Notes: generated from the letters alone by a model not told the origin. Positions 1-32,435 are shown, counted from the first letter of the stretch. The stretch: DNA of 32,435 nt from Flavobacteriales bacterium (GCA_905339165.1 CAJPFH010000054.1:1-32435); one strand, 5' to 3'. Numbers and translations are program-made.

Positions 1-8
1 TTTACAGC

Positions 9-142: not shown

Positions 143-161
143 ACAATTATAAACAGAGACT

Positions 162-1489: not shown

Positions 1490-1581
1490 GCAACCCTAAC
1501 CAACGACCGTGCAACCATCAACCGACAGACAAAACCCGACAGACAGTGCAATTTTCGGCAAAGCCGTTTGGCTATCCCTTC

Positions 1582-1647
1582 GCAAAATAAAAAGAGCTGC
1601 AAAGCCTCCCACAAGCCGACCCTCTTTTGCAGCACATTTTATTTTGC
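1582..1647 (+). repeat. mismatched hairpin A (left end of cassette 3)
   Basis: The arm 1582-1604 pairs with 1625-1647 over 23 positions with two A-A mismatches and one G-T wobble. The unpaired pair lies within AAAGAG (left arm) opposite CACATT (right arm). The loop contains CACAAGCC, shared with hairpins C and E. The arms are in the opposite order to hairpins B-E (AAAGAG first). It lies between attC 3 and the first metal gene. Confidence 0.7.
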
Positions 1648-1702
1648 CCAACCGCACCAGTGCCACCCGACAGTTTTGTGCTAAACCGACAAATTTTTTA
1701 CT

Positions 1703-1710
1703 TACATTTG
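1703..1710 (+). promoter_or_regulatory. putative -7 promoter element for the metal operon
   Basis: TACATTTG fits the Bacteroidota -7 consensus TAnnTTTG. An upstream TTTG (1675-1678) is 24 bases away, looser than usual. The element ends only 4 bases before the GTG start at 1715, so the transcript would be nearly leaderless or translation starts later. Confidence 0.4.
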
Positions 1711-1714
1711 CCCC

Positions 1715-2038
1715 GTGAAAAAAGTTTTGACACTCATATTCAGTTTCTACTTGTTGGCTCTGGCAGTTATGCCGTGCAGCGACAAGGACGACTGTAAATA
1801 TCAGGGTGCCGACCAATCTACTTTCGCCACTACCGACCACTCAGACCACAACAGCGACACCGAGAATTGCTCACCTTTTTGTATGTGTGCTTGCTGCGGA
1901 CAGACTTTCAGCAGTTCGTTTACTTATTACAGTTTAGCACTTCACGTTCCAGTTTCAGTAGAAAAATTTCCTATTTACAACGCCTCATTTGTTTCAGAGG
2001 TGTATTTGTCTATTTGGCAACCGCCAAAAATCAGTTAA
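1715..2038 (+). CDS. small Cys/His-rich exported protein upstream of CzcA (DUF6660-like)
   Basis: This 107-residue protein starts with a hydrophobic signal (MKKVLTLIFSFYLLALAVM). It then has an acidic, His-containing stretch (HSDHNSDTEN) and a tight cysteine cluster, CSPFCMCACC, at about residues 51-60, suited to binding soft metals in the periplasm. Small proteins of this type commonly sit just upstream of CzcA-type pumps in Bacteroidota; I attribute it to the DUF6660 group from memory, not from a search. A periplasmic metal-binding or accessory role for the pump downstream is inferred. The start is GTG 1715, which gives the intact signal sequence; the next in-frame ATG would remove most of it. 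About 100 bases containing two strong hairpins separate it from czcA. Confidence 0.72.
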   Translation: MKKVLTLIFSFYLLALAVMPCSDKDDCKYQGADQSTFATTDHSDHNSDTENCSPFCMCACCGQTFSSSFTYYSLALHVPVSVEKFPIYNASFVSEVYLSIWQPPKIS

Positions 2039-2050
2039 TGAATTTATGAT

Positions 2051-2069
2051 GTTCCGCTTTCAGCGGAAC
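2051..2069 (+). promoter_or_regulatory. hairpin between DUF6660-like gene and czcA
   Basis: Perfect 8-bp stem GTTCCGCT / AGCGGAAC with a TTC loop. It is followed by an A-rich rather than T-rich stretch, so it is not a classical terminator on the + strand. It may be an mRNA processing or stability element. Confidence 0.45.
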
Positions 2070-2079
2070 AAAACAAAAC

Positions 2080-2107
2080 TACTTACGGTGCTAACGCACC
2101 GCAAGTA
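2080..2107 (+). promoter_or_regulatory. second hairpin in the czcA leader
   Basis: TACTTAC-GGTGC-TAAC-GCACC-GCAAGTA folds to an 11-12 bp stem with one A-C mismatch and a TAAC tetraloop. It ends 33 bases before the chosen czcA ATG. Together with 2051-2069 it could control translation or attenuation of the pump; no known riboswitch was recognised. Confidence 0.45.
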
Positions 2108-2140
2108 ATCGTGTATTCATTCATTAAACTGATTAAAATA

Positions 2141-5100
2141 ATGTTAGACAAAATAATTGCATTCAGCATAAAAAATAAATTCATCATTGCATTGATGACA
2201 CTTGCACTCATTGTTTGGGGAGTGTGGAGTGCAACAAAACTGCCTATTGACGCAGTTCCCGACATCACCAACAACCAAGTGCAAATCATTACGGTTTGCC
2301 CCACTCTTGCAGGACAAGAGGTTGAACAGTTGGTAACTTACCCAATAGAACAAAGCATTGCCAACCTTCCCGACTTGGAGGAATTGCGGAGCATTTCCCG
2401 TTTCGGACTTTCGGTAATTACCGTTGTGTTTGACGACAAAGTGGACATCTACTTTGCCCGACAACTCATAAACGAAAGGCTAAAAGAAGCCGAAAGTAAA
2501 ATACCAAAAGGTGTTGGCACACCTGAATTAGCACCCGTTAGCACAGGATTGGGAGAAGTGTATCAATACATTATTCACCCAAAAAAGGGAAGCGAAAGCA
2601 AATACACAGCTATGGACTTACGGACAATGCAAGACTGGATTGTAGCCCGTCAATTATACGGCACAACTGGAATTGCGGAAGTAAACAGTTTTGGCGGACA
2701 ACTCAAACAGTATGAAGTAGCCGTAAATCCTGACCGTTTAATTGCAATGGGAATTACCATTCCAGAAATTTTTACCGCCTTAGAAAAAAATAATGAAAAT
2801 ACAGGCGGGGCATACATTGACAAAAAACCAAACGCCTATTTCATTCGTGGAGTTGGTTTGATTGGTTCGTTTGACGACATCAAAAACATTGTTGTAAAAA
2901 CAAATCCTAACGGCATTCCAATTCTGATAAAAGATGTTGCCGAAGTGCAATTTGGTAGTGCAGTTCGTTACGGTGCTATGACTTATAACGGGGAAGTAGA
3001 TGCCGTTGGTGGAGTTGTTATGATGCTAAAAGGTGCGAACAGTGCCGATGTGGTTAGCAGAATTAAAGATAAAATGGCAACCATTCAAAAATCATTGCCC
3101 AAAGATGTAGTAATAGAACCATACTTAGACAGAACAGATTTAGTAAACAGAGCCATCAGCACAGTAGAAAAAAACTTAATTGAAGGAGCATTAATAGTAA
3201 TCTTCGTTTTGGTTTTATTTCTTGGAAACCTTCGTGCAGGGCTTATTGTAGCTTCTGCCATTCCATTATCAATGCTTTTTGCATTGGGTTTAATGAATGT
3301 ATTTGGCGTAAGTGCAAACCTTATGAGTTTGGGAGCAATTGACTTTGGTTTAATTGTGGACGGGTCTGTAATTATTGTAGAAGCCACCTTGCATCATTTA
3401 GGAATGCGAAAAGCAATCGGCAGACTTTCACAGAAAGAAATGGACGAGGAAGTTTTTCAGTCCGCTTCAAAAATTCGTAGCAGTGCAGCGTTTGGAGAAA
3501 TTATTATCCTCATTGTATATATTCCTATTCTTACTCTTATTGGCATTGAAGGCAAAATGTTTGGCCCAATGGCTCAAACCGTTGGCTTCGCCATTTTCGG
3601 AGCATTGATTTTATCGCTTACCTACATTCCAATGATGTGTGCAGCGTTTTTACCAAAAACTATTTCGCACAAACAAACATTGAGTGATAGAATGATGAAT
3701 TTTTTCCAACGCGTTTATGCACCACTATTAGAAAAAGCAATCCGTTTCAAAAAAGTAATTGTAGTTGCAACCGTTGCGGTGTTTGTAGTTTCAGTTTTTC
3801 TATTTTCAAGAAGGGGCGGTGAGTTTATCCCAACCTTGCAGGAAGGCGATTTTGCTTTTCATTGCATTTTGCCACAAGGCACATCACTTTCTCAAAGTTT
3901 GGAAACTTCTATGCAAGCATCCCGACTAATCAAAGAATTTGATGAGGTAAAAATGGTAGTTGGAAAAACAGGTGCAGCCGAAGTCCCTACCGACCCAATG
4001 CCACCCGAAGCAACAGATATGATGATAATTCTGAAACCACAAAGCGATTGGAAACGTGATGTTTCTTATGATGAACTGGCAGAAGAATTTGAAGAAAAAC
4101 TCAACACAATTCCTGGGGTCTTCTTTGAAAAAAATCAACCTATTCAAATGCGATTTAATGAACTAATGACTGGAATTAGACAAGATGTTGCAGTAAAAAT
4201 ATTTGGTGAAAATATGGACACACTTTTAAGTTATGCCAATAAGGTAAATTCAGTAGTGCAAAGTGTTGATGGAGCAACCGAACCAAGTGTTGAACGAGTG
4301 GCTGGACTACCACAAATCGTAATAAAATACAACCGTTCGCAAATTGCCAATTATGGTTTAAACATTGAGGATATAAACCACATTGTAAGCACAGCTTTTG
4401 CAGGTGGAGGTGCAGGAGTTGTTTATGAAAACGAACGCAAATTTGAATTAGTGGTTCGCTTGGACAGCACACACCGAAACAACATTGAAGATGTAAGCCA
4501 TTTGTATATTCCAACTACAAACGGAACTCAAATTCCATTATCGCAAGTAGCCGAAATAAAAATGGAATTGGGTCCTGCACAAATAAGCCGTGAAGACGGT
4601 AAACGCAGAATTGTTGTAGGTTTCAATATTTCGGGTAGAGATGTAGCCAGTGTAGTTACTGATATTCAAAAGGAATTGAACGAAAAAGTAAAATTGCCTG
4701 AAGGCTATTATTACACTTATGGTGGAACATTTGAAAATCTGCAAGCAGCGAGCAAACGCCTAATGATTGCTTTACCAGTAGCTTTAGCACTCATTTTTAT
4801 GTTGCTTTATTTCACATTTGGTTCAGTAAAACAAGCAACCCTAATTTATACAGCAATTCCAATGAGTGCCATAGGTGGCGTTTTCGCCTTGCTCATTCGT
4901 GATATGCCTTTTAGCATTTCGGCTGGTATTGGTTTTATAGCATTGTTTGGAGTAGCCGTTTTAAATGGTATTGTGTTGATTGGAACTTTTAACCAATTGG
5001 AAAAAGACGGAATGACTGACATTATCCAACGCATAAAAGAAGGAACTAAAATCCGTTTGCGACCCGTATTAATGACTGCAACCGTTGCATCTTTAGGATT

Positions 5101-6502
5101 TTTACCAATGGCACTTTCGCACAGTGCAGGAGCAGAAGTGCAAAAGCCATTAGCAACCGTTGTAATTGGCGGTTTGCTTACTGCAACTTTCCTTACACTT
5201 TTTGTATTGCCCTTATTGTATGTGATGTTTTCAAAAATCAGAAAACCAAAACGCAAAGTATCAGCAACTGCTATTATAGTTTTTGCATTGTTTTCATTCA
5301 ATGTGGCAAATGCTCAAACGCCAACAACCAAAACCATTTCGGTTGATGATGCAATAAGCACAGCATTGAAAAACAATTTAGAAATTCAATCGCAACAATT
5401 CAATGTGCAATCATCTATCACTTTGAAAAAATCGGTGTTTGAATTGCCAAAAACGAATGTCAATTTTCAGTTTGGGCAATACAACAGCATCAATCAGGAC
5501 AAGGCGTTTCAAGTTTCACAAAGTATTCCGTTCCCGACTTATTTTACTGCAAAATCAGATTTGTATAAAGCCGAGTTGCAAAGCAGTGAATTGCAAAAGC
5601 AAGCCACAGCCAGCGAAATAAAAGCACAAGTTCAATATTGGTTTTATCAGTTGCAGTATTTACAAACCACAAAAAAGCAATTGCAATCTTTAGATAGTTT
5701 GTATAATGATTTTGTAAGTGCAGCAGCTTTGCGATACAAAACAGGCGAAACAAATTTGTTGGAGAAAACCACAGCCGAAACCAAGCGGGGACAACTTTCA
5801 CAATTGCTCAAACAAAACGAAACAGATTTTGCAACGGCTTACAATTCCCTTAAAACGCTAATGAATACAAGCGAAGATTTTACAATTACAGTAAATGATA
5901 ATTGGCAACCGCTTGTGTTAATCAGTTCGTTTGACACGACACTACTTGCGAATAATCCATCGCTTAAAGTATTGTATCAGCAAGCGATAATTGCCGAACA
6001 AAACAAAAAGTTAGAAACAGCATCTACCTTGCCCGATTTTAATGTGGGTTATTTCAACCAGTCGTTAATTGGAGTGCAAAGTATTAATGGAGCAGATGTA
6101 AATTTTGACGGTAGCAAACGTTTTCAAGGTTTTAATGTAGGTATCATTATTCCAATTACTTTTTTTAGCAACGCTTCAAAAATAAAATCGCTTGACTATA
6201 AACAGCAAGCATTGCAAAAAGAAGCTGACAACGGAAAACTAATTTTACAAAACCAGTTGCAAAATGCTTTTCAGCAATACAACCAAAATTTGTCGCAATA
6301 CAATTATTACAAATCAACCGCTTTGCCCAATGCTGACATAATTATCAGCACTGCCAAAGTTGGTTTCAAAAGTGGAGACATTGGTTACATTGAATACTTA
6401 CAAGCCTTGCAAACCGCTACCGATGTGCAGTTAAGTTATCTGCAATCGGTTAATCAAATCAACCAATCCATTATCAATATCAATTTCTTAACTAACAAAT
6501 AA
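2141..6502 (+). CDS. czcA: CzcA/CusA-type heavy-metal RND pump fused to a TolC-like outer-membrane channel
   Basis: The protein has 1,453 residues from ATG 2141; a GTG at 2111 would add ten residues not needed by the family. Residues 1 to about 1,035 form a complete HME-RND proton antiporter: first membrane helix near residues 10-30, periplasmic porter domains, and helix 4 with the metal-pump motif AIDFGLIVDGSVIIVE, whose Asp401, Asp407 and Glu414 match the charged proton-relay residues of CzcA/CusA. After the last inner-membrane helix a basic linker and a signal-like segment ending NVANAQ lead into a TolC/CzcC-like domain (about residues 1,045-1,453) rich in Gln, Asn and Ala helices. The pump-channel fusion is standard in Bacteroidota, not a lost stop codon. 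With the adaptor downstream it exports divalent or monovalent heavy metals from periplasm or cytoplasm to the outside. Metal specificity (Co/Zn/Cd or Cu/Ag) cannot be settled. Confidence 0.93.
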   Translation: MLDKIIAFSIKNKFIIALMTLALIVWGVWSATKLPIDAVPDITNNQVQIITVCPTLAGQEVEQLVTYPIEQSIANLPDLEELRSISRFGLSVITVVFDDKVDIYFARQLINERLKEAESKIPKGVGTPELAPVSTGLGEVYQYIIHPKKGSESKYTAMDLRTMQDWIVARQLYGTTGIAEVNSFGGQLKQYEVAVNPDRLIAMGITIPEIFTALEKNNENTGGAYIDKKPNAYFIRGVGLIGSFDDIKNIVVKTNPNGIPILIKDVAEVQFGSAVRYGAMTYNGEVDAVGGVVMMLKGANSADVVSRIKDKMATIQKSLPKDVVIEPYLDRTDLVNRAISTVEKNLIEGALIVIFVLVLFLGNLRAGLIVASAIPLSMLFALGLMNVFGVSANLMSLGAIDFGLIVDGSVIIVEATLHHLGMRKAIGRLSQKEMDEEVFQSASKIRSSAAFGEIIILIVYIPILTLIGIEGKMFGPMAQTVGFAIFGALILSLTYIPMMCAAFLPKTISHKQTLSDRMMNFFQRVYAPLLEKAIRFKKVIVVATVAVFVVSVFLFSRRGGEFIPTLQEGDFAFHCILPQGTSLSQSLETSMQASRLIKEFDEVKMVVGKTGAAEVPTDPMPPEATDMMIILKPQSDWKRDVSYDELAEEFEEKLNTIPGVFFEKNQPIQMRFNELMTGIRQDVAVKIFGENMDTLLSYANKVNSVVQSVDGATEPSVERVAGLPQIVIKYNRSQIANYGLNIEDINHIVSTAFAGGGAGVVYENERKFELVVRLDSTHRNNIEDVSHLYIPTTNGTQIPLSQVAEIKMELGPAQISREDGKRRIVVGFNISGRDVASVVTDIQKELNEKVKLPEGYYYTYGGTFENLQAASKRLMIALPVALALIFMLLYFTFGSVKQATLIYTAIPMSAIGGVFALLIRDMPFSISAGIGFIALFGVAVLNGIVLIGTFNQLEKDGMTDIIQRIKEGTKIRLRPVLMTATVASLGFLPMALSHSAGAEVQKPLATVVIGGLLTATFLTLFVLPLLYVMFSKIRKPKRKVSATAIIVFALFSFNVANAQTPTTKTISVDDAISTALKNNLEIQSQQFNVQSSITLKKSVFELPKTNVNFQFGQYNSINQDKAFQVSQSIPFPTYFTAKSDLYKAELQSSELQKQATASEIKAQVQYWFYQLQYLQTTKKQLQSLDSLYNDFVSAAALRYKTGETNLLEKTTAETKRGQLSQLLKQNETDFATAYNSLKTLMNTSEDFTITVNDNWQPLVLISSFDTTLLANNPSLKVLYQQAIIAEQNKKLETASTLPDFNVGYFNQSLIGVQSINGADVNFDGSKRFQGFNVGIIIPITFFSNASKIKSLDYKQQALQKEADNGKLILQNQLQNAFQQYNQNLSQYNYYKSTALPNADIIISTAKVGFKSGDIGYIEYLQALQTATDVQLSYLQSVNQINQSIININFLTNK

Positions 6503-6513
6503 AATTCACAACG

Positions 6514-7788
6514 ATGAAAAATATAATCTTTATAGCAGCCATTGCAACATCAATAGTATTTGCATCCTGCAACAGCAAAAAAACAGAAACGCACGGAGAG
6601 GAAACCGAGCTTCACGATGAACACGAAAACTCCAACACGGCTATGCTTACAGCCGAGCAAATGAAATCTATAAAAATAGAGTTGGGTAGTATTGAAAAAA
6701 AGCAACTCACCGCCTCACTCAAAGCCAATGGTATTTTAAAAGTGCCAAATCAAAACCGTGCTAATGCCACAGCATCATTGGGCGGAGTTATCAAATCTAT
6801 TCTGGTGCAAACGGGAAATACTGTAAGCAAAGGACAAGTAATTGCAACCATTTCAAACAATTCTTTTATCACAATGCAGGAAGAATTTTTAAGCGTTTCT
6901 TCAAAAGCAGAGTTGGCACAATTAGAATTTACCCGTCAAAAAGAATTGCAACAAGGCAACGCAGGTGCGTTGAAAAACTTACAGTCAGCCGATGCAGAAC
7001 TTAAAACCTTGAAAGCCCGAAAAGCAAGTTTGCAAAAACAATTAGAGTTAATCGGTATCAACACCGCTTCACTCACAAGCGAAAATATTCAATCCGTTGT
7101 AAATATTACAAGCCCCATAAACGGCACTATCAGTAATGTAATGGTAAACATTGGTAGCTATGTAGATGCCAACAATCCCATTGCCGAAATAGTGGACAAC
7201 AGCCAACTGCATTTGGATTTGTATGTGTATGAAAAGGATTTGCAAAAACTAAAAGTTGGGCAAACCATACATTTCACCCTTACCAATAATCCCGGGAAAG
7301 AATATGATGCAGATGTTTACGCCATTAGCAACACTTTTGAGCAAAACACCAAAGCCGTTGCAGTTCACGCAATGGTAAAAGGCAACAAACAAGGCTTAAT
7401 TGACGGAATGAGTATTACAGCATTGGTAAGTTTGGAAAATGCAACCGTTGATGCAGTGCCAACCAACGCAATTGTAAACCACGAAGGGCAGGATTATATT
7501 TTTATTGTAACCGATGCTCACAAGGAAGAAGAACACCATAGCGAAACTGAAACAGCCGAACACAAACACGATGAACACGGACACGAGCATAGTGAAAAAG
7601 AAGAACCTGAACACAAAGAAGAAGGAACAACTTTTGAAAAAATACCCGTTCGCAAAGGCACTACGGACGTAGGTTACAGTGAAATTACTTTGCTGAAAGA
7701 AATTCCTGCTAACTGTAAAGTAGTGGTGAACGGAGCATTTTTTATATTGGCTAAAATGAACAACAAAGGAGAGGCTCACGCACATTAA
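6514..7788 (+). CDS. czcB: periplasmic adaptor (membrane fusion) lipoprotein of the metal RND pump
   Basis: This 424-residue protein has a lipoprotein signal peptide ending in VFASC (Cys19), placing it on a membrane facing the periplasm. A His/Glu-rich stretch follows the Cys (HGEETELHDEHEN). Next comes an HlyD/CzcB-type core: a lipoyl-like half (GGVIKSILVQTGNTVSKGQV), an alpha-helical hairpin (about residues 125-180, LAQLEF to LQKQLELIGI), the second lipoyl half (ITSPINGTISNVMVNIGSYV) and a beta-barrel region. A loop near residues 335-375 contains nine histidines among acidic residues, probably a metal-chelating insert. It joins the pump to its channel domain and hands over metal. It starts 11 bases after czcA and is followed 17 bases later by the P-type ATPase, so the three genes probably share a transcript. 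Confidence 0.9.
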   Translation: MKNIIFIAAIATSIVFASCNSKKTETHGEETELHDEHENSNTAMLTAEQMKSIKIELGSIEKKQLTASLKANGILKVPNQNRANATASLGGVIKSILVQTGNTVSKGQVIATISNNSFITMQEEFLSVSSKAELAQLEFTRQKELQQGNAGALKNLQSADAELKTLKARKASLQKQLELIGINTASLTSENIQSVVNITSPINGTISNVMVNIGSYVDANNPIAEIVDNSQLHLDLYVYEKDLQKLKVGQTIHFTLTNNPGKEYDADVYAISNTFEQNTKAVAVHAMVKGNKQGLIDGMSITALVSLENATVDAVPTNAIVNHEGQDYIFIVTDAHKEEEHHSETETAEHKHDEHGHEHSEKEEPEHKEEGTTFEKIPVRKGTTDVGYSEITLLKEIPANCKVVVNGAFFILAKMNNKGEAHAH

Positions 7789-7805
7789 TTAAAAACATTC
7801 ATAAA

Positions 7806-9710
7806 ATGAAACTACCAATCAACGACAAAAAATTTCTCTTTCTTCTTTTGGCAATCACAATAGTGGTTGCCTTAGAAATTTTATCCATCATCGGCATACA
7901 TATACCTATGCCTTATGCACCTTTCGTTTTCGCCATTTTTATTTTAGGCATTGGCTACAATGTTTTATGGAACGGATTAAAAGCAATCTTCAAACTCCAA
8001 TTCAGCAACATCAATCTTTTAATGCTTATAGCAGTTGTAGGTGCATTCTACTTAAAGGAATTTCCCGAAGCAGCAGTTTTGGTAGTGTTATATGTATTAG
8101 GCGAACGCTTAGAAGATATTGGCATAGAAAATTCAAAATCGGCATTAGATGAATTGGTAAGCAAAGCACCCAAGACAGCATTTGTAAAATCAGAAAATAC
8201 AAATGTGGTTATTGATAAAATTGCAGTAGGCACAATCATTCAAGTGAAAGCAGGAGAAATGATACCGCTTGATGGCAAAATTATTTCAGGCGAAACATTG
8301 GTTGATGAAGCAGCCATCACAGGCGAACCAATTGCTAAAGACAAACGCACAGGCGATAATTTGTTTGCAGGAACACTCAACAAAAATGGTTTTATAGAAA
8401 TGGAAACAACAAAACTTTCCATTGATACCACTTTCTCAAAAATCATTCGCCTAACATTTGAAGCAACAGCAAACAAAAGTGAAACACAAAAATTCATTCA
8501 GCAATTCGCTAAGTATTACACGCCTGTAATGCTTGCACTTTCCATTTTACTGTTTGTTGTTCCAGTTTTCGTTTTGAATTTAGATTTTAACCATTGGTTG
8601 CAGCAAGCCATTACACTTTTAGTAATTGCTTGTCCGTGTGCATTGGTTATATCTACACCAGTTGCCATTTACGCAGCCATTGGAAACGCATCTGCAAAAG
8701 GAGCATTGGTAAAAGGTGGGAAATATATTGAAGCCCTTGCATCAATCAAAGCAATTGCATTAGATAAAACACGAACCATCACTTTCGGAAATCCAATCGT
8801 GTCAGATATTTTTCCATTGAACGGAACAAGCCGTGAAGAACTATTGGCTTGCACCGCAGGAGCAGAAATTTTCAGCGAACACCCATTGGCACAAGCCATA
8901 GTTGATGCAAGCAAAAAAGAAGGATTTGAACCACACAAAACCGAAGGTTTCAAAAGCATTATGGGCAAAGGGGCAACAGCAAAATGTTTAGTTTGTGAGG
9001 ATGAAACAATTTATGTAGGCAAATTAGATTTTATTCAAGAAACGCAAACCATAGACAACGAAGCCGTAAAAATTGTAGAGCAACTTTCATCACAAGGCAA
9101 AACAAGTGTAGTAGTTAGTTTCGGAAACGGGGTTGCAGGGATTATAGGATTGATGGACGAAATAAAACCTGACAGTGCAGCAGCGTTAAAAGAAATTGAA
9201 GCAATGAATATAGAACCTGTAATGCTCACAGGCGACAGCGAAAAGGCAGCAAACTATGTAGCACAACAAGTAGGCATCAAAAAAATATTCGGCAATATGC
9301 TACCCGAAAACAAAGCCGAAAAAATCAAAGAACTTTTACAGCAATATAAATTTGTAGCAATGGTAGGTGATGGCATCAATGATGCACCAGCCCTTGCACA
9401 AAGCACCGTAGGTATTGCAATGGGAGCAGCAGGAAGCGACACCGCAATAGAAACCGCCAACATTGCGTTGATGAATGATAAACTTTCACTCATTCCGTTT
9501 TTAATTCGGTTAAGTCAAAAAACTTTACGCAGAATAAAATTCAACACCATCGGAGCCATAGCAGTAAAATTGATTTTCATAACCCTTGCATTCATTGGTT
9601 ACAGCAATTTGGTTTTCGCCATTGCAGCAGACGTAGGAGTAACGCTTATAGTAATTTTGACAAGTTTGAATTTGATGAAGTTTGAAAATAAAATTGTAAG
9701 CGGACAGTGA
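7806..9710 (+). CDS. P1B-type heavy-metal translocating ATPase (CadA/ZntA-like)
   Basis: This 634-residue protein lacks an N-terminal HMA metal-binding domain. Paired hydrophobic helices lie at about residues 8-60 and 65-100, the actuator motif ITGEP near residue 177, the metal-site CPC (Cys276-Pro-Cys278) in ACPCAL, the nucleotide-domain SEHPLAQ motif and the hinge GDGINDAPA near residue 525. It should use ATP to move a heavy metal out of the cytoplasm, complementing the RND pump. The phosphorylation motif reads DKTRTIT (Asp320, Arg323) instead of the near-invariant DKTGT. The rest is intact and there is no frameshift, so I take it as functional; this may be a subfamily trait. The absence of the HMA domain and presence of CPC fit Zn/Cd/Pb-type pumps more than copper pumps, but this is not proven. 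Confidence 0.9.
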   Translation: MKLPINDKKFLFLLLAITIVVALEILSIIGIHIPMPYAPFVFAIFILGIGYNVLWNGLKAIFKLQFSNINLLMLIAVVGAFYLKEFPEAAVLVVLYVLGERLEDIGIENSKSALDELVSKAPKTAFVKSENTNVVIDKIAVGTIIQVKAGEMIPLDGKIISGETLVDEAAITGEPIAKDKRTGDNLFAGTLNKNGFIEMETTKLSIDTTFSKIIRLTFEATANKSETQKFIQQFAKYYTPVMLALSILLFVVPVFVLNLDFNHWLQQAITLLVIACPCALVISTPVAIYAAIGNASAKGALVKGGKYIEALASIKAIALDKTRTITFGNPIVSDIFPLNGTSREELLACTAGAEIFSEHPLAQAIVDASKKEGFEPHKTEGFKSIMGKGATAKCLVCEDETIYVGKLDFIQETQTIDNEAVKIVEQLSSQGKTSVVVSFGNGVAGIIGLMDEIKPDSAAALKEIEAMNIEPVMLTGDSEKAANYVAQQVGIKKIFGNMLPENKAEKIKELLQQYKFVAMVGDGINDAPALAQSTVGIAMGAAGSDTAIETANIALMNDKLSLIPFLIRLSQKTLRRIKFNTIGAIAVKLIFITLAFIGYSNLVFAIAADVGVTLIVILTSLNLMKFENKIVSGQ

Positions 9711-9751
9711 AACCTGCAATCATAACGACAGTGCATACAAAGCCCACGCAT

Positions 9752-9816
9752 TTGCACTCACATTTGCTTTTGCCACCACGCACAGGCAAACGCAGCAAAA
9801 GCAAAAGAGAGTGCAA
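9752..9816 (+). repeat. mismatched hairpin B (right end of cassette 3)
   Basis: Arms 9752-9773 and 9795-9816 are complementary at 20 of 22 positions. The only two mismatches are A-A, separated by one C-G pair, where CACATT faces AAAGAG. It starts 41 bases after the ATPase stop codon. There is no T-tract, so a simple terminator is less likely. Confidence 0.75.
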
Positions 9817-9914
9817 GCAACCGCACCCGTTTACCGCAGACCAGACCGTAAACAACGTGGACAATTCAGTGTATATTCAACAACGACAACACTTCGGACA
9901 GACAGAAGGGCAGC

Positions 9915-10046
9915 TGATAACAGCGGTTTGGCAAAAGTGGCGGTTCAGTACTTCGTATGACAGTTTTTCGTAAATTTGAAGTGTGTGCTTCGTATGAAAG
10001 TTCAGTGGTTAAATCGCCACCTTCGCCAAGCCGCAAACCGTTAGGC
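9915..10046 (+). repeat. attC site 4
   Basis: 132 bp. Left core TGATAAC (9915-9921), right core GTTAGGC (10040-10046). Its left end GCTGATAA is complementary to the start of cassette 3 8.4 kb upstream (TTATCAGC, 1484). Outer arms around GCGGTTTGGC and GCCAAGCCGC pair; inner arms AAAGTGGCGG and CGCCACCTTC pair. It is close in sequence to attC 7. Confidence 0.88.
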
Positions 10047-12571: not shown

Positions 12572-12720
12572 CCAACCGTAGGACGACCATTCTTCGTAGA
12601 CAATGACACAGGTAATTTGACACCGACTGCAAATAAATAACGAGTGGACTTTTGCACAGAGACAGTTCATTGCAATCTTGACACAGACCGACCTTGCCGA
12701 CACGCAAGCCGACCCAAATG

Positions 12721-12761
12721 TTTTAAAAAATTTTGCCCACGCTCATTTAAAAAATAATTTT
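12721..12761 (+). repeat. left AT-rich terminal block of cassette 6
   Basis: Two AT-rich words, TTTTAAAAAATTTTG (12721-12735) and ATTTAAAAAATAATTTT (12745-12761), separated by nine bases. Both occur as exact reverse complements, in mirrored order, at 18385-18399 and 18357-18373. The 32 matching bases cannot be explained by AT-richness alone. Confidence 0.8.
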
Positions 12762-18356: not shown

Positions 18357-18399
18357 AAAATTATTTTTTAAATTTCCTTCCCTTCAAAATTTTTTAAAA
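18357..18399 (+). repeat. right AT-rich terminal block of cassette 6
   Basis: AAAATTATTTTTTAAAT (18357-18373) and CAAAATTTTTTAAAA (18385-18399) are exact reverse complements of 12745-12761 and 12721-12735. The spacer TTCCTTCCCTTC contrasts with the left spacer and is shared with the right block of cassette 12 (32068-32080). Confidence 0.8.
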
Positions 18400-18494
18400 C
18401 GCCACCGCACAACCCACGACAGGAAAGCAATACAGTTTGACAATGTGTGCAAAAACATTCGGTGGACACTGACACGAAAGACAGAACGGCTGGG

Positions 18495-18627: not shown

Positions 18628-18678
18628 GCAACCATAAACAGACGACAGAACAAATGAAATAAACAGGAAAAATAAATA

Positions 18679-18764
18679 TCACCCTCGGACGATTGGTTGA
18701 GTCGCCTACCTTCAAAGACATTTAAGATAAAGTAGGAAAAGTTGGTTCGATTCCAACAGGGTGA
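18679..18764 (+). tRNA. tRNA-like element with a 22-nt anticodon loop (cassette 7)
   Basis: The acceptor stem TCACCCT / AGGGTGA is perfect over 7 bp (18679-18685, 18758-18764). The D arm is GAC-GATTGGTTGA-GTC and includes the conserved GG. The T arm GTTGG-TTCGATT-CCAAC is canonical (18741-18757), and the variable region is AAAA. The anticodon stem CCTAC / GTAGG (18705-18709, 18732-18736) encloses 22 bases instead of 7. If its first seven (CTTCAAA) were the normal loop, the anticodon would be TCA with about 15 extra bases. Position 8 is C instead of T, and no CCA is encoded. So this is a tRNA-derived or tRNA-mimicking element, not an ordinary tRNA. Its 3' end abuts a HEPN-motif gene. Alternatives are a decayed tRNA or a structured leader. 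Confidence 0.6.
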
Positions 18765-18778
18765 CAAATAAAAAAAGA

Positions 18779-25174: not shown

Positions 25175-25306
25175 GCATAACAGCACCTACCCAAAAGTGG
25201 CGGTTCAGTGGTTCAATCAAGCTTTGTGCTTCTATCAAAGTTTCTGCTTGGTTGACAGTTAAGTGCTTCGAAATCGCCACCTTCGGGTAGCTGCAAACCG
25301 TTACCA
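25175..25306 (+). repeat. attC site 12
   Basis: 132 bp. Left core GCATAAC (25175-25181), right core GTTACCA (25300-25306). CCGCATAA complements the cassette 11 start (TTATGCGG, 23720). The arms AGCACCTACCC and GGGTAGCTGC, AAAGTGGCGG and CGCCACCTTC pair. It differs from attC 13 at about eight positions by eye outside the terminal cores. Confidence 0.88.
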
Positions 25307-25447
25307 GCAAGCGTAGAGAACGACACGACAACAAGAAAACGAACGACAAAAACAGAAAAAGTAAACCATTTTGACAGGTGACCAAGGACATAGAAACGAT
25401 ACAACAAACGGACAGCGAGTAAGCCGACACTCATTGCCGACCCTTCT

Positions 25448-25488
25448 GTATTTTTTATTTTCCCCTCCGCATATTTTTTTTAATTCAA
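25448..25488 (+). repeat. left AT-rich terminal block of cassette 12
   Basis: GTATTTTTTATTTTC (25448-25462) and ATTTTTTTTAATTCAA (25473-25488) are exact reverse complements of 32081-32095 and 32052-32067. The words differ from those of cassette 6, but the two-word layout is the same. Confidence 0.8.
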
Positions 25489-25504
25489 ATTTATGCCGAC
25501 CCGC

Positions 25505-25572
25505 AAACGGCACATTGGCTTTTGCCCCAATCGCACAAGCCAACCCTTCAGGCAAAAGCCAAAGAGCCGTTT
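25505..25572 (+). repeat. mismatched hairpin E (left end of cassette 12)
   Basis: Arms 25505-25526 and 25551-25572 pair at 20 of 22 positions. The only mismatches are the two A-A positions where CACATT faces AAAGAG. The loop has CACAAGCCAACCC, like hairpins A and C. Confidence 0.78.
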
Positions 25573-25680
25573 TTGCCAACGCACCGACAGAGCATTCAGA
25601 AAACAAAGGTGATTTTTTTCTTATTTTGACAAACTCAAACTTTCAGAGCGATGGCATATACTTTCAATTAATTCAAGACT

Positions 25681-26592
25681 ATGGATTTTAAACCGAGCAT
25701 AAGCGAAAAATTCTTAGACCTCTTTTACAAAGAGATTGAATGTGATGTGCCTGATACTAATTCAAAACTCAACTTGCATATTCTTAAAATTGAGAATAAC
25801 CAGTTTTGTTATGAGGAGCTAATTGAGCATTTGGGTGAAAGCATGATACCATTTGCTTTATCAAGAAAACAAATAAAAGAATTTGAAAAGGATAAACGTT
25901 GGCATGGTTTAGTAAAGGAGGCTTCGAGAAAGTTTAGAGATTATAATGTTAATGATGGTGAAGCGGGCGAATTACTGCTATTTTGTTTTCTTGAAGCACA
26001 TCTAAAAGCACCTAAAATTCTCACAAAACTAGAAATCAAACTTTCGTCAAACGACTATGCAAAAGGTTCGGACGGTATTCATTTGCTTGAATTGGCTCCT
26101 AAAAACTATCAACTGATTTTCGGAGAATCGAAACTATATCAAGAACTAACAACTTCCCTATCGAAAGCATTTGAATCAATTCATGATTTTAGAACAAGGA
26201 AAAAGAATAACATCCATGATGAGATTGGTTTAATCAACTCTCAACTATGCAAGGAGGCATTTGATGAAGATTTATATCAGTTTCTAAAATCAGTAATTAT
26301 ACCCAAGGCAAGTGATACTGACCCAATTGTAAAGAACAATGCCTTTGCCATTTTCGCAGGTTTTGAGATTGACCCAACGGATGATGAAAAGCGTTTGACC
26401 AACGATAAGTTTCTGGCATTGATAAAATCACAAATTAAGGAAGAGGTTGAACGCAAAATGAACCATATCAAAAAGAAGATTGAAGAATACGAGCTATACA
26501 GCTATACTTTTTACGTTTATGTTTTCCCGTTCATGAAACTGGATGAAACAAGAAAAGAAATCATCAAGAAAATAACACGAACAGAAGAATGA
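25681..26592 (+). CDS. hamA: HamA (DUF1837) nuclease of the Hachiman defence system
   Basis: This 303-residue protein has the DUF1837 pattern: KEASRKFRDYNVNDGEAGELLLFCFLEA (about residues 80-107), then a PD-(D/E)XK-like site with Asp in YAKGSDGIHLLE and Glu-Ser-Lys in IFGESKLYQ. The C-terminal helices contain long charged repeats (KSQIKEEVERKMNHIKKKIEEYE). HamA is the nuclease subunit of Hachiman; with the helicase HamB it destroys DNA after sensing damaged or phage DNA. It overlaps hamB by 4 bases (ATGA), the usual order hamA-hamB. ATG 25681 starts the conserved region. No strong promoter consensus was found in the 380-base leader. Confidence 0.87.
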   Translation: MDFKPSISEKFLDLFYKEIECDVPDTNSKLNLHILKIENNQFCYEELIEHLGESMIPFALSRKQIKEFEKDKRWHGLVKEASRKFRDYNVNDGEAGELLLFCFLEAHLKAPKILTKLEIKLSSNDYAKGSDGIHLLELAPKNYQLIFGESKLYQELTTSLSKAFESIHDFRTRKKNNIHDEIGLINSQLCKEAFDEDLYQFLKSVIIPKASDTDPIVKNNAFAIFAGFEIDPTDDEKRLTNDKFLALIKSQIKEEVERKMNHIKKKIEEYELYSYTFYVYVFPFMKLDETRKEIIKKITRTEE

Positions 26593-29162
26593 TAGAACGT
26601 TTGGCCAATGATGTGTTGCAAGATGAATACTTTATTAAACTCAATAATAAAGCGGCTAAACTATTGGCTAATAATTTGTTTTCAGAAAATGGCAGAAGTA
26701 TAAAACTGACCGAAAAGGAATTGAATGACACACTTCGCTTTGCTGACATACTTTCAAATTCAAAAAATCCGAAAGCACGAAACAAAGCCTACCAACTCAT
26801 CACCCTGCTCAACGAAGATTATAAGACTAACCCTTATTATCAGACCTTCTCTCACTCTGTATTAGCAAAACTGGGAAACTTTCCGGGCATTGAATTTTTA
26901 AAGAATGAAAACAACAGTTCTGAATTGCCTTTTGAAAGAGAACTTGAAAAGAAAGTCAAAGAGTTTATTCAAGCAGTTCCCGATACGGAGGATTTAATTT
27001 TCACCGATTCACAATTTGAACTTTACAAAAAGATAAGCGGCTCAAAGCATTTTAGCTTTTCAGGCCCGACTTCAATGGGTAAATCGTTTATCATTAAATC
27101 CTTTATCAGAAAAGTAGTTGGCAACAAACCGCCTGAGAATATTGTCATAATGGTTCCGACCAGGGCTTTGATTAATCAGTTTTCCTTAGACCTGAACAAA
27201 GAACTCAAAGATGTTTTGGAGCATTATAATTACACGGTAATTACCAACTCCAATGTTTCTGAATTGCCATCAACAGAGCAGCATTACATTTTTGTGTTAA
27301 CTCCTGAAAGACTTTTGAGTTATTTGTCACAAAAGAAAAATCCAAACATTGCTTATCTTTTCATAGATGAAGCCCATAAACTGGCAGCTGAAAAAGACAG
27401 TCGGGCAGTAACTGCGTATTCAGCTATTTCAAAGGCACTAAGAAGAAATCCAAACCTGAATTTATATTTCTCTTCTCCGAATGTTTCAAATCCTGAAGTA
27501 TTTCTGAAACTTTTCAAAAAAGATGAGAAGCAATTTTTCAGAACCATAGAAACACCCGTTTCGCAGAATCTGTTTTTTGTTGATTTGGTTGAGAAAAAAG
27601 TGACCCACTATCTTGACAATGGTAATTATGAATTTGAACCGAAAATTGTAACGAAAGCAGAGACAATTTTTGATTTACTTTCAGTAATTGGTGACGAAGA
27701 GAGCAATATTGTGTATTGCAGTTCAAGATTTGATGCTGTAGATAAAGCTGCGAAACTGTTTGAGCAAAATCAGAATAAGCAGGTTGAAGTATCTAGAAAT
27801 GTAAAAAGAGTTATCCGCCAAATCAAAGGCTACATTCATAAGGATTATTATTTAGGTGAGTTTCTAAATAGAGGAATTGGGTATCACTTTGGAAATTTGC
27901 CCCAAATCATTCGAAATAAAGTTGAAGGGCTCTTTAAGGAAAGAGAAATCAATTATGTTTTTTGCACATCAACTCTATTAGAAGGCGTGAACTTGCCAGC
28001 AAAAAATGTTTTTATCCTGAATAACAAAAACGGTAGAAATACATTTCAGCCAATTGACTTTTGGAATCTTGCAGGACGAGCAGGACGACTTAAACATGAA
28101 CTTTCAGGTAATATCATTTGCCTAAAAGAAACCGATAAGGACTGGAAGAAACACGAAGCTCTTTTAGAAGGTAATGCAGAAATAAACCTAAATCCATCTG
28201 TAGAAAACTACATTGACAAAAAGTTAAAGAAGATTGAGCAAATACTGAATGAAAAGCCCGATATAAAAGGGGAAACAGAAACAATGAAGGAGATATTGGA
28301 ATACATTGCCAATATCATCAGTATTGACACACTTGAAATTGAACGAGCAAATTACAATAGTGAGATTATAAAAAAGCTAATTGCCGACAATAAGGAAGCA
28401 ATAATTGAATTGGCAAAAAAGAAAAACGGGAAGATTGACGTTCCTTCAAGCGTTTTAAATACAAACAATTCAATCAAACTAAAAATCCAGAATGAAATTT
28501 TCATTGCTTTAAAAAAGCAATCCAAAAGCCCAACAGCTATTAAGTTGCCAAATCGTGTAACTTATGAGATTTGCCAAGAGTGGCTTCATAAATTCTATAC
28601 AATGTTCCATTGGGAAACAGAGGAAAAGAAGTTTAAATCTCAAAACCAACTTGACTATTATGCTGTTCTGATGAATCAATGGATAAATGGAGTTCCATTA
28701 AGCCAAATCATTAATGAATCTATTGCTTACTACAATCGTAAAGGCAGCACACTAATGGTTGGTTACAAAAACGGTAAACCATCCTATGAGGTGTTCGACA
28801 ATAGCAAACATCACATCAATGTCCTGATTGGAAATATCATTGATGATATTGAAAGTGTTCTTAGATTCCTGTTTGAAAAATATTTCAATAACTATTACGC
28901 CATGCTTGTTGAAATATTAGGTGAGGACAATGCAGGTGTAAACTGGGCGACATTTTTAGAATATGGAACACAAAACACAATTGTGATTGCTTTACAGAAT
29001 TACGGTCTATCAAGACACTCCGCAGACTACATTTTTAAGAGGTTTAAAGATTGCCTAAAAATCGAAGGAGATAAACTTATTGAAATCAACATTAAGAAGC
29101 TAAAAAGCAGACTTAGTAAGGAAGAAATAGAGTATGATGAAATCAGTTCAATATTATTTTAA
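26589..29162 (+). CDS. hamB: HamB superfamily 2 helicase of Hachiman
   Basis: This 857-residue protein carries all main SF2 motifs: Q-like FTDSQFELYKKI, Walker A GPTSMGKS (159-166), motif Ia VPTRALINQ, Walker B with DEAH (Asp260 to His263), motif III-like YFSSPN, motif V TLLEGVNLPAKNVFI and motif VI DFWNLAGRAGRLKH. The N-terminal 130 residues are helical, and the long C-terminal part (about residues 520-857) is helical with no further named domain. In Hachiman the helicase loads on DNA and controls the HamA nuclease. It overlaps hamA by 4 bases and abuts the next gene directly (the ATG follows the stop codon). Confidence 0.88.
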   Translation: MIERLANDVLQDEYFIKLNNKAAKLLANNLFSENGRSIKLTEKELNDTLRFADILSNSKNPKARNKAYQLITLLNEDYKTNPYYQTFSHSVLAKLGNFPGIEFLKNENNSSELPFERELEKKVKEFIQAVPDTEDLIFTDSQFELYKKISGSKHFSFSGPTSMGKSFIIKSFIRKVVGNKPPENIVIMVPTRALINQFSLDLNKELKDVLEHYNYTVITNSNVSELPSTEQHYIFVLTPERLLSYLSQKKNPNIAYLFIDEAHKLAAEKDSRAVTAYSAISKALRRNPNLNLYFSSPNVSNPEVFLKLFKKDEKQFFRTIETPVSQNLFFVDLVEKKVTHYLDNGNYEFEPKIVTKAETIFDLLSVIGDEESNIVYCSSRFDAVDKAAKLFEQNQNKQVEVSRNVKRVIRQIKGYIHKDYYLGEFLNRGIGYHFGNLPQIIRNKVEGLFKEREINYVFCTSTLLEGVNLPAKNVFILNNKNGRNTFQPIDFWNLAGRAGRLKHELSGNIICLKETDKDWKKHEALLEGNAEINLNPSVENYIDKKLKKIEQILNEKPDIKGETETMKEILEYIANIISIDTLEIERANYNSEIIKKLIADNKEAIIELAKKKNGKIDVPSSVLNTNNSIKLKIQNEIFIALKKQSKSPTAIKLPNRVTYEICQEWLHKFYTMFHWETEEKKFKSQNQLDYYAVLMNQWINGVPLSQIINESIAYYNRKGSTLMVGYKNGKPSYEVFDNSKHHINVLIGNIIDDIESVLRFLFEKYFNNYYAMLVEILGEDNAGVNWATFLEYGTQNTIVIALQNYGLSRHSADYIFKRFKDCLKIEGDKLIEINIKKLKSRLSKEEIEYDEISSILF

Positions 29163-31061
29163 ATGAAGGACTTTAAACTTATAGCAATAAGACCACTCAC
29201 TGGATGTGATAAAAAATTTACGAAAATATTAAGTGAAGGAGTGACGTATGTATTTTACAATGAATATGATTTTTCTAAATACACTGACCAAGCGAGAATT
29301 ATCAAGCAAAAAGAAAATACAACTCCAGATTTATTTTCTGTAAAAAACAATTTTAAGAAGGAAGTAAATATTAATATTTCAGCTATAGTTGGTGAAAATG
29401 GCTCTGGCAAGAGTAGCATAGTTGAGTTGTTTTATGTGTCTTGCTATAACATATCTGTAATAAATGAAGTGCTATATGATGAAGACGAAGAAAGACTTTT
29501 AAATTCAAAGGACATTGTGCCTGATATTAATGTTGAGATTTTCTATAAGATTGATGCAGAAGTTTTTCTATTAAAACTAAACAAATCGGAAATAAAGATT
29601 TTCAATTTACAGAAAGACGCTTTTGTTGAATTAAGGAATCATACATTTAGCTTAAGTAATTTTTTTTATACAATTTCTATTAATTATTCTCTACACTCTC
29701 TTAACTCTTTGGTTCTTGGAGATTGGGTTAAAAGGATTTTTCACAAAAATGATGGATATCAAACTCCAATTGTCTTAAATCCTTACAGAAATAAAGGCAA
29801 TATTGAAATAAATAACGAAGAGTATTTGGTGAAGTCTAGGCTTATTTCAAATGTTCTTGGCAAAACAGATGGTAAATTAAAGCCAGAGGATACTTTAAGA
29901 AATATTCTTGACAAGAAAATAGCTCACAAACTTAAAGTGGAGCTTAATAAAGAGAAATTCAAATACGACAAAAATAATAAACCAATTTTTGAAATTACCG
30001 AAGAAATTGGAGATGTTATTTTGCCTCTTGTATACAAACACTTTTTGAAGAACAAAAGCTTTGTGCCACAAGACACTTTACTTAACCGTTATGCGAAAGA
30101 ATATATTCTTTATAAGTTAAAGAGCATTGCTTCCAAATATCAACCATACAAAAGACTGTTTAGATATTTCTACGAAGATGCGAGTAACGCTGACGCATTC
30201 CTATTAATGCTAGCAGAAGAAAATAGTCATGTTACCTTTAAACTTATTCAGGCAATAAATTTCCTTTCAAATGAATTATATTTTAATAGAAAAGAATCGT
30301 TTGAATTGACTGTGGCTTATTTGTCAAATCAACTTGATAAGGAAAGTAAGACAAAAGGCAAGGAACTAATTGATATTTTACCCCCAGCATTTTTTAAAGT
30401 TGATATTGAGTTTAAAGATTCGGATACATTTAGCTTACTTAGTTCAGGGGAAAAGCAAAGAGTTTACAGTATTGCTACTTTGATTTACCACTTGAACAAT
30501 TTAAGTTCAACAAATGCAAAAATTATAAATCATAAATACAGGCGTGTAAACGTCATTTTTGACGAACTCGAACTTTATTTTCATCCTGAACTGCAAAGGA
30601 ACTTAATAAATGATATTATCGAAAGCATTAAGAAAATCCATCTAAAAGAAGTGGATGCGATAAATATTCTTTTAATAACACATTCACCGTTTATTTTATC
30701 GGACATTCCTGATTCAAACATATTATTTTTAACTGAAAAGGGATTGCCGGAAGAGAACAGAATAAATATAAAAACATTTGGAGGCAATATTCATGAGTTA
30801 TTAGCTCACAGTTTCTTTTTAAATAATGGTTTTATTGGTGAATTTGCAAAAAACAGAATACAAACCATTATCGACAATCTTAAACCTGATGAAAAAAAAT
30901 CTAATAAGGCTGTAAACAGAGATTTAATTTGGAAAGAGATTCAAATTGTCGGAGAGCCTTTCCTGAAAGAGAAACTTGAAGAAATGTATTATTCGAAATT
31001 TGACAAGACTAAAAGAATAAATGAACTGAGAGCAGAATTAAACCGATTGGAAAATGATTAG
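29163..31061 (+). CDS. SMC/ABC-type ATPase, Septu PtuA-like
   Basis: This 632-residue protein has Walker A GENGSGKS (residues 77-84), an ABC-type signature LLSSGEKQRVYSIATL, Walker B VIFDELELYFHPE (Asp467, Glu468) and an H-loop THSPFILSDI. The inserted middle part (about residues 100-400) is helical and replaces a coiled coil. Together with the HNH protein that overlaps it by 8 bases it matches the two-gene Septu defence system (PtuA ATPase, PtuB nuclease), in which the ATPase senses infection and controls the nuclease. Similar ATPase-HNH pairs also occur in some retron systems; no reverse transcriptase is seen here. It starts immediately after the hamB stop. Confidence 0.82.
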   Translation: MKDFKLIAIRPLTGCDKKFTKILSEGVTYVFYNEYDFSKYTDQARIIKQKENTTPDLFSVKNNFKKEVNINISAIVGENGSGKSSIVELFYVSCYNISVINEVLYDEDEERLLNSKDIVPDINVEIFYKIDAEVFLLKLNKSEIKIFNLQKDAFVELRNHTFSLSNFFYTISINYSLHSLNSLVLGDWVKRIFHKNDGYQTPIVLNPYRNKGNIEINNEEYLVKSRLISNVLGKTDGKLKPEDTLRNILDKKIAHKLKVELNKEKFKYDKNNKPIFEITEEIGDVILPLVYKHFLKNKSFVPQDTLLNRYAKEYILYKLKSIASKYQPYKRLFRYFYEDASNADAFLLMLAEENSHVTFKLIQAINFLSNELYFNRKESFELTVAYLSNQLDKESKTKGKELIDILPPAFFKVDIEFKDSDTFSLLSSGEKQRVYSIATLIYHLNNLSSTNAKIINHKYRRVNVIFDELELYFHPELQRNLINDIIESIKKIHLKEVDAINILLITHSPFILSDIPDSNILFLTEKGLPEENRINIKTFGGNIHELLAHSFFLNNGFIGEFAKNRIQTIIDNLKPDEKKSNKAVNRDLIWKEIQIVGEPFLKEKLEEMYYSKFDKTKRINELRAELNRLEND

Positions 31062-31998
31062 ACTGCAAAAAAATAATACAGAAGCACATACCCACATGGT
31101 TATTGCAGAAAAATTAATTCGTAAACGTATTAATTCTTTACTTGCCAAAGGTTCTATTGGTAGAACGACAGTAATTCATTTAACACGAGCAACGACTGCT
31201 TATTTAACAGACTTGTTGAATGGGCATAATCTTCGTGATTTAATTCTTACCAGTCCTGAAAATATGCCAAGCTTAATAGCTGGTATTTCAGCCGTATTTC
31301 CAGACTTCGTTATACCTAATTCGGATGAGAATTTAATTCTTCGTAATGTATTCATTTCACATGGTTACGAGCATAAGGACTTTGATAAATTAGATTTCAT
31401 TAAAAGAATAAATATTGATACTTGCCCGTATTGTAATAGGAGCTATATTTATTATTTATCAAAAGATGGAAAAATCAAACCTCAAATAGACCATTTTTAT
31501 CCAACTAATATTTATCCATTCCTTGCGTTAACATTTTACAATTTGATTCCTTCTTGTCAGACATGCAATGGATTTGGAGCAAAGGAAGGTAATAACCCGT
31601 TGTTAGTGAACTTAGTAAATCCGTACTTAATTGAAAATCATAATTTCAAATTCACTTACAAGATAAATCACATTAACTTTTTGAACCCTCTGCTTGATAA
31701 AAATAGCGTAGAAGTAAAATTGAAGCATCATCTTACAGGGCATACGGATGTATTTAAACTTGACAAATTGTATCAGCAGCACTCTGACCATGTGCTTGAA
31801 TTAATAATAAAGAGCAAAATCGCATATTCAAACAAATACAGAACATACTTACATTCATATAAAGGACTAAAATTCAATGATGCTGAAATTGACAGAATGA
31901 TTTTAGGAAATTATTCAAAAGAGGATGAAATTCATAAAAGACCCTTAGCAAAATTGTATCAAGACATTGGAGTAGAATTAGGATTAATTAAAAGATGA
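31054..31998 (+). CDS. HNH nuclease, Septu PtuB-like
   Basis: This 314-residue protein has a zinc-stabilised HNH core: CPYC (Cys124, Cys127), then IDHFYP with Asp146-His147, Asn163 in FYNLIPSC, and Cys168/Cys171 in SCQTCN. The His-Asn arrangement fits the beta-beta-alpha-metal nuclease site. Helical regions flank the core; the N-terminal part probably contacts the ATPase. It overlaps the ATPase gene by 8 bases, as expected for a coupled PtuA-PtuB pair. The longer C-terminal half (HLTGHTDVFKLDKLYQQHSDHVLELI) is typical of this HNH group. It is the last gene of cassette 12. Confidence 0.84.
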   Translation: MIRLQKNNTEAHTHMVIAEKLIRKRINSLLAKGSIGRTTVIHLTRATTAYLTDLLNGHNLRDLILTSPENMPSLIAGISAVFPDFVIPNSDENLILRNVFISHGYEHKDFDKLDFIKRINIDTCPYCNRSYIYYLSKDGKIKPQIDHFYPTNIYPFLALTFYNLIPSCQTCNGFGAKEGNNPLLVNLVNPYLIENHNFKFTYKINHINFLNPLLDKNSVEVKLKHHLTGHTDVFKLDKLYQQHSDHVLELIIKSKIAYSNKYRTYLHSYKGLKFNDAEIDRMILGNYSKEDEIHKRPLAKLYQDIGVELGLIKR

Positions 31999-32051
31999 GA
32001 AGAAACATAAGCCATCGCAAATGTGCTTCCACCTTTCCCACGCTGACAAAA

Positions 32052-32095
32052 TTGAATTAAAAAAAATTTCCTTCCCTTCTGAAAATAAAAAATAC
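32052..32095 (+). repeat. right AT-rich terminal block of cassette 12
   Basis: TTGAATTAAAAAAAAT (32052-32067) and GAAAATAAAAAATAC (32081-32095) are exact inverted copies of 25473-25488 and 25448-25462. The spacer TTCCTTCCCTTCT is nearly the same as that of the right block of cassette 6. Upstream, GCAAATGTGC (32017-32026) resembles one hairpin arm, but I found no clear partner for it. Confidence 0.78.
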
Positions 32096-32172
32096 GCAAC
32101 CGCACAGACCAACACTACAAAGAAACTCAAAAAGGACAATGGTTTACAGACACGGTGGACAAGAACGCCAGC

Positions 32173-32304
32173 TGGTAACAGCACCTACCCAAAAGTGGCG
32201 GTTCAGTGGTTAAATCAAGTGAAGTGCTTCTATCAAAGTTTGTGCTTGGTTGACAGTGAAGTGCTTCGAAATCGCCACCTTCGGGTAGCTGCCAACCGTT
32301 AGTG
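32173..32304 (+). repeat. attC site 13
   Basis: 132 bp. Left core TGGTAAC (32173-32179), right core GTTAGTG (32298-32304). GCTGGTAA complements the cassette 12 start (TTACCAGC, 25301). Nearly identical to attC 12, including arms, centre and modules. Confidence 0.88.
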
Positions 32305-32435
32305 GCAATAAATGACGAAGACGGTATCGTAAAATTTGAAAAGTCTAACGGCAGACTGTTTTCTTGCCCCTTTCCTTTTAATTTAAAAAAAATGACACGT
32401 TTGTCGCGGTCGACATTTTTAAATCGGCCTCTCGC
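32299..32435 (+). other. start of cassette 13 (truncated by window)
   Basis: The cassette starts TTAGTGGCA. No gene is seen in the 137 bases available. A T/A-rich stretch (TTTAATTTAAAAAAAATG) near the end resembles the AT-rich left blocks of cassettes 6 and 12, so cassette 13 may be another large one; its partner would lie beyond the window. Confidence 0.45.

Follow-up and report, generated by a model that had tools for sequence, protein, structure and literature searches.

The stretch of DNA analysed here (the window) comprises 32,435 nt from a Flavobacteriales bacterium (GCA_905339165.1 CAJPFH010000054.1:1-32435) and is an array of 12 attC-like sites, each of the form TAAC..GTTA. Features of cassettes 6 and 12 are all given on the + strand. 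Cassette 12, which contains the region of interest (25448-32095), starts with the terminal bases GTTACCAGC of a 126-nt left-bounding attC (TAAC..GTTA, 25178-25303) and is followed by its right attC (32176-32301). It encodes HamA (Hachiman, 303 aa, 25681-26592), the HamB helicase (Hachiman, 857 aa, 26589-29162), a PDC-M62A-like AAA ATPase related to PtuA (632 aa, 29163-31061) and its PDC-M62B-like partner related to PtuB (314 aa, 31054-31998). The cargo is thus Hachiman HamAB together with a Septu-like ATPase/HNH pair, and the Hachiman assignment rests on adjacent HamA (DUF1837, E=4.3e-117) and HamB helicase (E=0) matches. A further cassette is cut by both ends of the window (1-153 and 32302-32435) and stands whole on contig C82 of the same genome (L004, 1092-1587); the contig therefore probably broke at this repeated cassette.

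Two words at the left end of cassette 12 had been reported to match inverted copies at its right end exactly. Indeed, all 31 of 31 bases are exact reverse complements, 15 nt in W1 and 16 nt in W2. The left end reads W1 GTATTTTTTATTTTC (25448-25462), an unpaired spacer CCCTCCGCAT (25463-25472, family form CCCACCGCACA) and W2 ATTTTTTTTAATTCAA (25473-25488); the right end reads W2' TTGAATTAAAAAAAAT (32052-32067), an unpaired spacer TTCCTTCCCTTCT (32068-32080) and W1' GAAAATAAAAAATAC (32081-32095). The two spacers are not reverse complements of each other. The two-block score was 31, whereas 3,000 dinucleotide shuffles of the same flanks never gave more than 19. Additional pairing elements were found nearer to the attC sites: W0 GTAAACCATT (25361-25370) with W0' AATGGTTTAC (32138-32147), and the left core helix GTTACCAGC-AA-GCGT (25300-25314) with its partner ACGC-CA-GCTGGTAAC (32165-32179). 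A local hairpin, H, lies at 25505-25572 (AAACGG-CACA-TTGGCTTTTGCC .. GGCAAAAGCCAA-AGAG-CCGTTT).

Cassette 6, which carries two DNA methyltransferases and other genes, has W1, spacer and W2 GTTTTAAAAAATTTTG / CCCACGCTC / ATTTAAAAAATAATTTT on the left (12720-12761) and W2'-TTCCTTCCCTTC-W1' on the right (18357-18400). Its two-block score was 33, compared to a shuffle maximum of 23 (3,000 dinucleotide shuffles, same flanks). The right spacer had been described as common to cassettes 6 and 12, and TTCCTTCCCTTC does occur exactly in the window only at 18374 and 32068. A third exact copy lies on contig C82 of this genome, where it terminates a further large cassette of identical layout but different words. 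When cassettes of more than 4 kb were compared, cassettes 6 and 12 carried the paired words but the 8.4-kb efflux cassette (about 1483-9920, encoding RND and P-type ATPase genes) did not; the longest block shared between its ends is 9 nt. At 1559-1680 the window also contains an H-type hairpin in which AGAG comes before CACA (stems GCAAAATAAA and CTGCAAA); the internal loop is the usual one, but closed from the opposite side. A small cassette contains a tRNA-like element at 18678-18765, with a readable 7-bp acceptor (TCACCCT/AGGGTGA) and a T-arm. Its match to Rfam tRNA-Sec is weak (26.9 bits, below gathering), and ARAGORN reports nothing.

Relatives were searched in an assembled-genome collection with the right-end spacer and its AT-rich flank as query. 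This gave 44 stretches, roughly 36 of which were true members as judged from flanking sequence, nearly all from Bacteroidota. Since right ends were collected using the spacer itself, conservation of the right spacer is partly imposed by the sampling. Two variant spacers were found without the motif as bait in the Bacteroidota SSA2 genome (G057), indicating that the spacer is not absolutely fixed. The exact right-end motif was present in 2 of 395 genomes of a phylum sample, which makes its distribution patchy, and in none of the viral contigs searched. Left ends were found in the same genomes by a left-spacer pattern, so that both ends were available for 35 cassettes. Word matching served at first to find the own left ends (24-33/33 in the cassettes used), and all carry independent flanking landmarks. 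For L137-L143, whose left end lies outside the retrieved stretch, the best chance word match was 21-24/33, without landmarks.

In most true members an attC lies about 110-140 nt beyond the right motif, while several run off the contig or into other sequence instead, including group II intron-like sequence. Rfam matches to group II introns near cassette ends were obtained at L111 (32-143 and 6945-7022), L116 (776-851) and L129 (520-710). For nearly all cassettes with detected attC sites, the distance was about 114-161 nt from left end to left attC and 112-138 nt from right motif to right attC. Exceptions are L135, with 73 nt, and cassettes in which the neighbouring site escaped the detector, which give larger left distances. 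Long inverted repeats flanking multi-gene cargo could also be read as the inverted-repeat termini of a transposon that lies within the cassettes. This we find hardly credible, because these distances are nearly constant on both sides, conserved sequence runs on to the attC and the words differ between elements. Moreover, no target-site duplication was noticed and no insertion outside an attC context was seen; flanks are conserved out to the attC and there are no independent targets, unlike a transposon, whose conserved ends would be recognised in different, duplicated target sites.

Comparison of the 35 cassettes indicated that the words are part of a larger multi-helix structure. Inward from the attC, the helices follow one another as the 9-bp core, an AA/CA mismatch (22/27), 3-4 bp, W0, W1, an internal loop and W2. 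The loop between W1 and W2 is conserved and C-rich or pyrimidine. The words are extremely AT-rich, and they change while the unpaired, non-complementary spacers are kept. W0 occurs as TTTCGCTGT, GTAAACCATT, TTTTGCACA, ACAACCATT, AAAGCAC and other forms, each matching its own right end; its sequences differ, yet they match in most cassettes. Many ends also carry a local covarying H hairpin, with variable stems and a constant CACA/AGAG internal loop (34 distinct).

To measure covariation, every left end was scored against every right end, with the alignment re-optimised each time. Own end pairs totalled 1090, against 806.9±38.1 for swapped pairs (35 cassettes; maximum 985 in 20,000 permutations). 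Phylogenetic correction was limited to collapsing identical word sets; for the 25 distinct sets the own total was 763 against 540.0±33.5 swapped, and none of 50,000 permutations reached it. Row-shuffle z-scores were inflated because the own register had been optimised, and significance was therefore taken from the end-swap test. Watson-Crick cells amounted to 94.0% in W1, 95.8% in W2 and 97.4% in the 9-bp core, with at least two pair types at 10/13, 12/15 and 5/9 positions, respectively. The words fall into unlike types, A (GGTTTTAAAAATTTT), B (GTATTTTTTATTTTC) and C (GTTTTTTATTTTTTT), with several W2 forms. These types stand side by side in one genome, so they are not host lineages. The preliminary description had proposed that the ends are selected to pair, in parallel with the core complement rule, and this is supported by own-end matching above all 20,000 swaps and by compensatory pair types in W1, W2 and the core. 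Thus, in the large operon cassettes of Bacteroidota integron-like arrays, end complementarity covaries between cassettes.

Relatives with non-matching words would have refuted this proposal. Such cases do exist, but as exceptions, in 1-2 of the 35 cassettes: L132 is fully mismatched and L127 matches only in part. L132 (G053:C30:109000-117000) has a type-C left end, a type-A right end and a mismatched core, and adjoins an attI-like stretch and sequence that looks like the end of a decayed recombinase. We read it as a chimera. At L123, a type-A right end abuts a type-B left end at one attC, and these facing ends do not match. Matching thus holds between the left and right ends of a single cassette and not across an attC of the array, which points to the cassette unit, most simply as a circle, as the object of selection. 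Circle junctions (right end, attC, left end) were also folded with DNA parameters, and the own junction beat the swapped-left mean in 27 of 27 cases. Top- and bottom-strand folds were about equally stable, hence a bottom-strand preference of the attC is not independently demonstrated.

The same partner ends would also meet if they paired across the cassette as single-stranded DNA, closing a 2-10-kb loop and uniting the flanking attC sites for excision, with the single strand coming from a replication gap, conjugation or transformation. The covariation fits this scheme equally well, and the limitation of the ends to large cassettes suits a problem of distance. However, several kb of DNA would have to be single-stranded, the distance of the W words from the attC (112-161 nt) is smaller than a tether needs, and some large cassettes have no W words. 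We consider it unlikely.

The level at which the ends pair, DNA or RNA, was approached through promoters and through the non-Watson-Crick cells. In 22 of the 35 cassettes, against 7.2% of shuffles, the interval from the left H hairpin to the first gene holds a match to a Bacteroidota-type promoter pattern (TTTG-N17-22-TAnnTTTG, one mismatch). With promoters placed in this way, the left words probably precede the transcript. In W1, W2 and the core, the non-Watson-Crick cells were 2 GT and 7 AC, showing no G·U excess, in small numbers; elsewhere there were 3 GT and 5 AC in H, and 23 GT and 21 AC in the attC stems. Choosing a strand from G·U against A·C counts was rejected, as there are too few cells to decide. 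Promoters inside the left end and the lack of a G·U excess fit selection at the DNA level better than at the RNA level. A structure formed between the 5' and 3' regions of a cassette-length transcript, for stability or regulation, is accordingly very unlikely: conserved internal loops, covarying helices and local hairpins at both ends do look RNA-like, but W1 and W2 lie upstream of the likely start, G-U pairs are not in excess and Rfam gave no match over gathering score in the window.

Perfect Watson-Crick matches without G-U excess, few intermediates and the extreme AT content of the words are also what would be seen if pairing were a by-product, with AT-rich ends selected for melting or insulation and hairpin-templated correction keeping the quasi-palindromic arms identical. 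Templated correction should make the spacers complementary too, but these are conserved yet non-complementary, which argues against simple copying of one end onto the other. Moreover, covariation extends to the W0, core and H helices, which contain G+C. Such a by-product appears quite unlikely to us.

The paired ends define a class of large operon cassettes, but not every cassette over 4 kb belongs to it. The own core matched at 7 or more of 9 positions in 26 of 32 cassettes. Ordinary small cassettes displayed core pairing only, and their extended ends match no better than swapped ones. In the array of Bacteroidota SSA2, H hairpins were found in 0 of 132 cassettes shorter than 2 kb and in 15 of 21 of at least 3.5 kb (P=2.4e-16). 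The cargo is mixed: type II, IIG and III restriction-modification, Hachiman, Sir2, HerA, helicase-nucleases and efflux-type transport genes. The end structure is thus independent of cargo, whether restriction-modification, Hachiman, Sir2/HerA or efflux transporters. Every one of the 146 ORFs of 130 aa or more in the 35 cassettes is encoded on the cassette strand, in keeping with the single orientation of cassettes in an integron array. Nine related cassettes from different hosts (L033, L112, L115, L116, L121, L124, L129, L130 and L136) have ORFs of about 444, 356 and 1030 aa in common, which would fit the efflux-type families of the pooled scan; the genes that precede these ORFs vary. The efflux assignment of this set rests on matching ORF sizes and pooled Pfam hits.

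The best explanation of the paired ends, to which we give an even chance, is that W0-W2 lengthen the attC stem in the excised circle and so aid re-integration of large cassettes; no recombination has been observed. Selection would then act on the cassette as a DNA unit, an inference from the comparisons above. Excision would make the cassette ends neighbours on either side of the rebuilt attC. The core helix would follow the known rule, and W0-W2 would extend the attC stem into a structure of roughly 450 nt. Supercoiling is known to govern how attC sites fold by cruciform extrusion (PMC8946536). If the circle is supercoiled, AT-rich W helices could make melting or extrusion of a cruciform easier, and proteins could make contact with the conserved loops. 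The outcome would be efficient re-integration of a multi-kb operon circle. Against this explanation, the need for an extension in large but not in small cassettes remains unexplained, the window has an 8.4-kb cassette without W words, and the mismatched L132 and L127 exist.

An integrase for these cassettes was also sought. The repeated attC sites with a paired outer core are those of an integron array. A canonical integron was not recovered, since no IntI integrase with the I2 insertion was found at the curated cut-off: TIGR02249 gave no match over cut-off in 46 genomes of the family, nor in 12 genomes carrying these cassettes. At a loose E-value, IntI searches gave matches in every control genome and are uninformative alone. 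The control genomes have no IntI, so that a strongly diverged IntI is not excluded.

On the chromosome of Bacteroidota SSA2 (CP058707), more than 230 attC sites were detected between 3.476 and 3.982 Mb (loci L151-L170, L209 and L223-L228). They make up an array about 500 kb long, and all but about a dozen of the detections share one strand. A 371-aa tyrosine recombinase (3985801-3986895) stands at the array head, about 3.4 kb from the first detected attC. In another genome (G070) a recombinase ends about 150 bp before a first cassette. At L113 a distance of about 150 bp separates the recombinase from a ACGCAATATGCG stretch and a first cassette; this stretch recurs at L132 beside the decayed recombinase. 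A three-sequence profile of the SSA2 recombinase and its relatives gave strong matches in 31 of 32 genomes searched, and also catches ordinary Xer proteins at lower scores. The nearest solved relatives of the array recombinase are of XerA type, followed by IntI4. In all three recombinases examined, the match to TIGR02249 is split into two stretches that omit I2 (2-181 and 234-314 in G000:C18). Canonical integrases use this domain to recognise the extrahelical bases of attC (PMC4792948). From position and co-occurrence we infer that the acting enzyme is probably the Xer-like recombinase found with the arrays.

A wider proposal, which can only be tentative and may well be wrong, is that Xer-like recombinases without I2 run integron-like systems in Bacteroidota (about 500 kb in one genome), and that operon-sized cassettes stand apart as a class that needs, for its mobility, a long covarying DNA structure formed by the two ends and read by shape and not by sequence. 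If the ends matter for recombination, they would provide an explanation, open to testing, of how integrons can mobilise DNA of operon size; combined with a recombinase lacking I2, they could reveal a different means of reading folded recombination sites. Arrays of this kind may be undercounted, since a published survey found no complete integron in Bacteroidetes beyond Salinibacter ruber (PMC9024848).

Several known systems resemble parts of what is described here. The cargo of cassette 12 matches both Hachiman (HamAB) and PDC-M62 defence modules; here, however, both share one cassette, and the end structure is specific to neither. REP/BIME-type palindromic repeats are likewise intergenic hairpins with conserved small tags, whereas the H hairpins are located at cassette ends and have CACA/AGAG internal loops; none of the listed H sequences showed the GTAG/CGTC tags that appear in the title of PMC3733652. 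Xer-type tyrosine recombinases (XerA/XerH family, NCBIfam NF040815) are the best match of the array recombinases, which differ from them by an extra N-terminal stretch and by heading a very large attC array (SSA2) or adjoining the first cassette (G070). The closest comparison is with the cassettes of sedentary chromosomal integrons. Direct arrays, attC-like TAAC..GTTA sites, co-oriented genes and the own-end core complementarity that rebuilds the attC in the circle (the core complement rule) are shared with these. Unlike integrons, the twelve genomes here yielded no integrase over cut-off, and the recombinase heading the SSA2 array has no I2. The large cassettes further differ in their multi-gene cargo with promoter-like sites and in pairing through W0-W2, about 190 nt beyond the core. 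Integron cassettes are known to keep a few complementary end bases; here the rule reaches several helices, and it applies to a class of large cassettes by which entire operons are moved, among them anti-phage systems and metal efflux.
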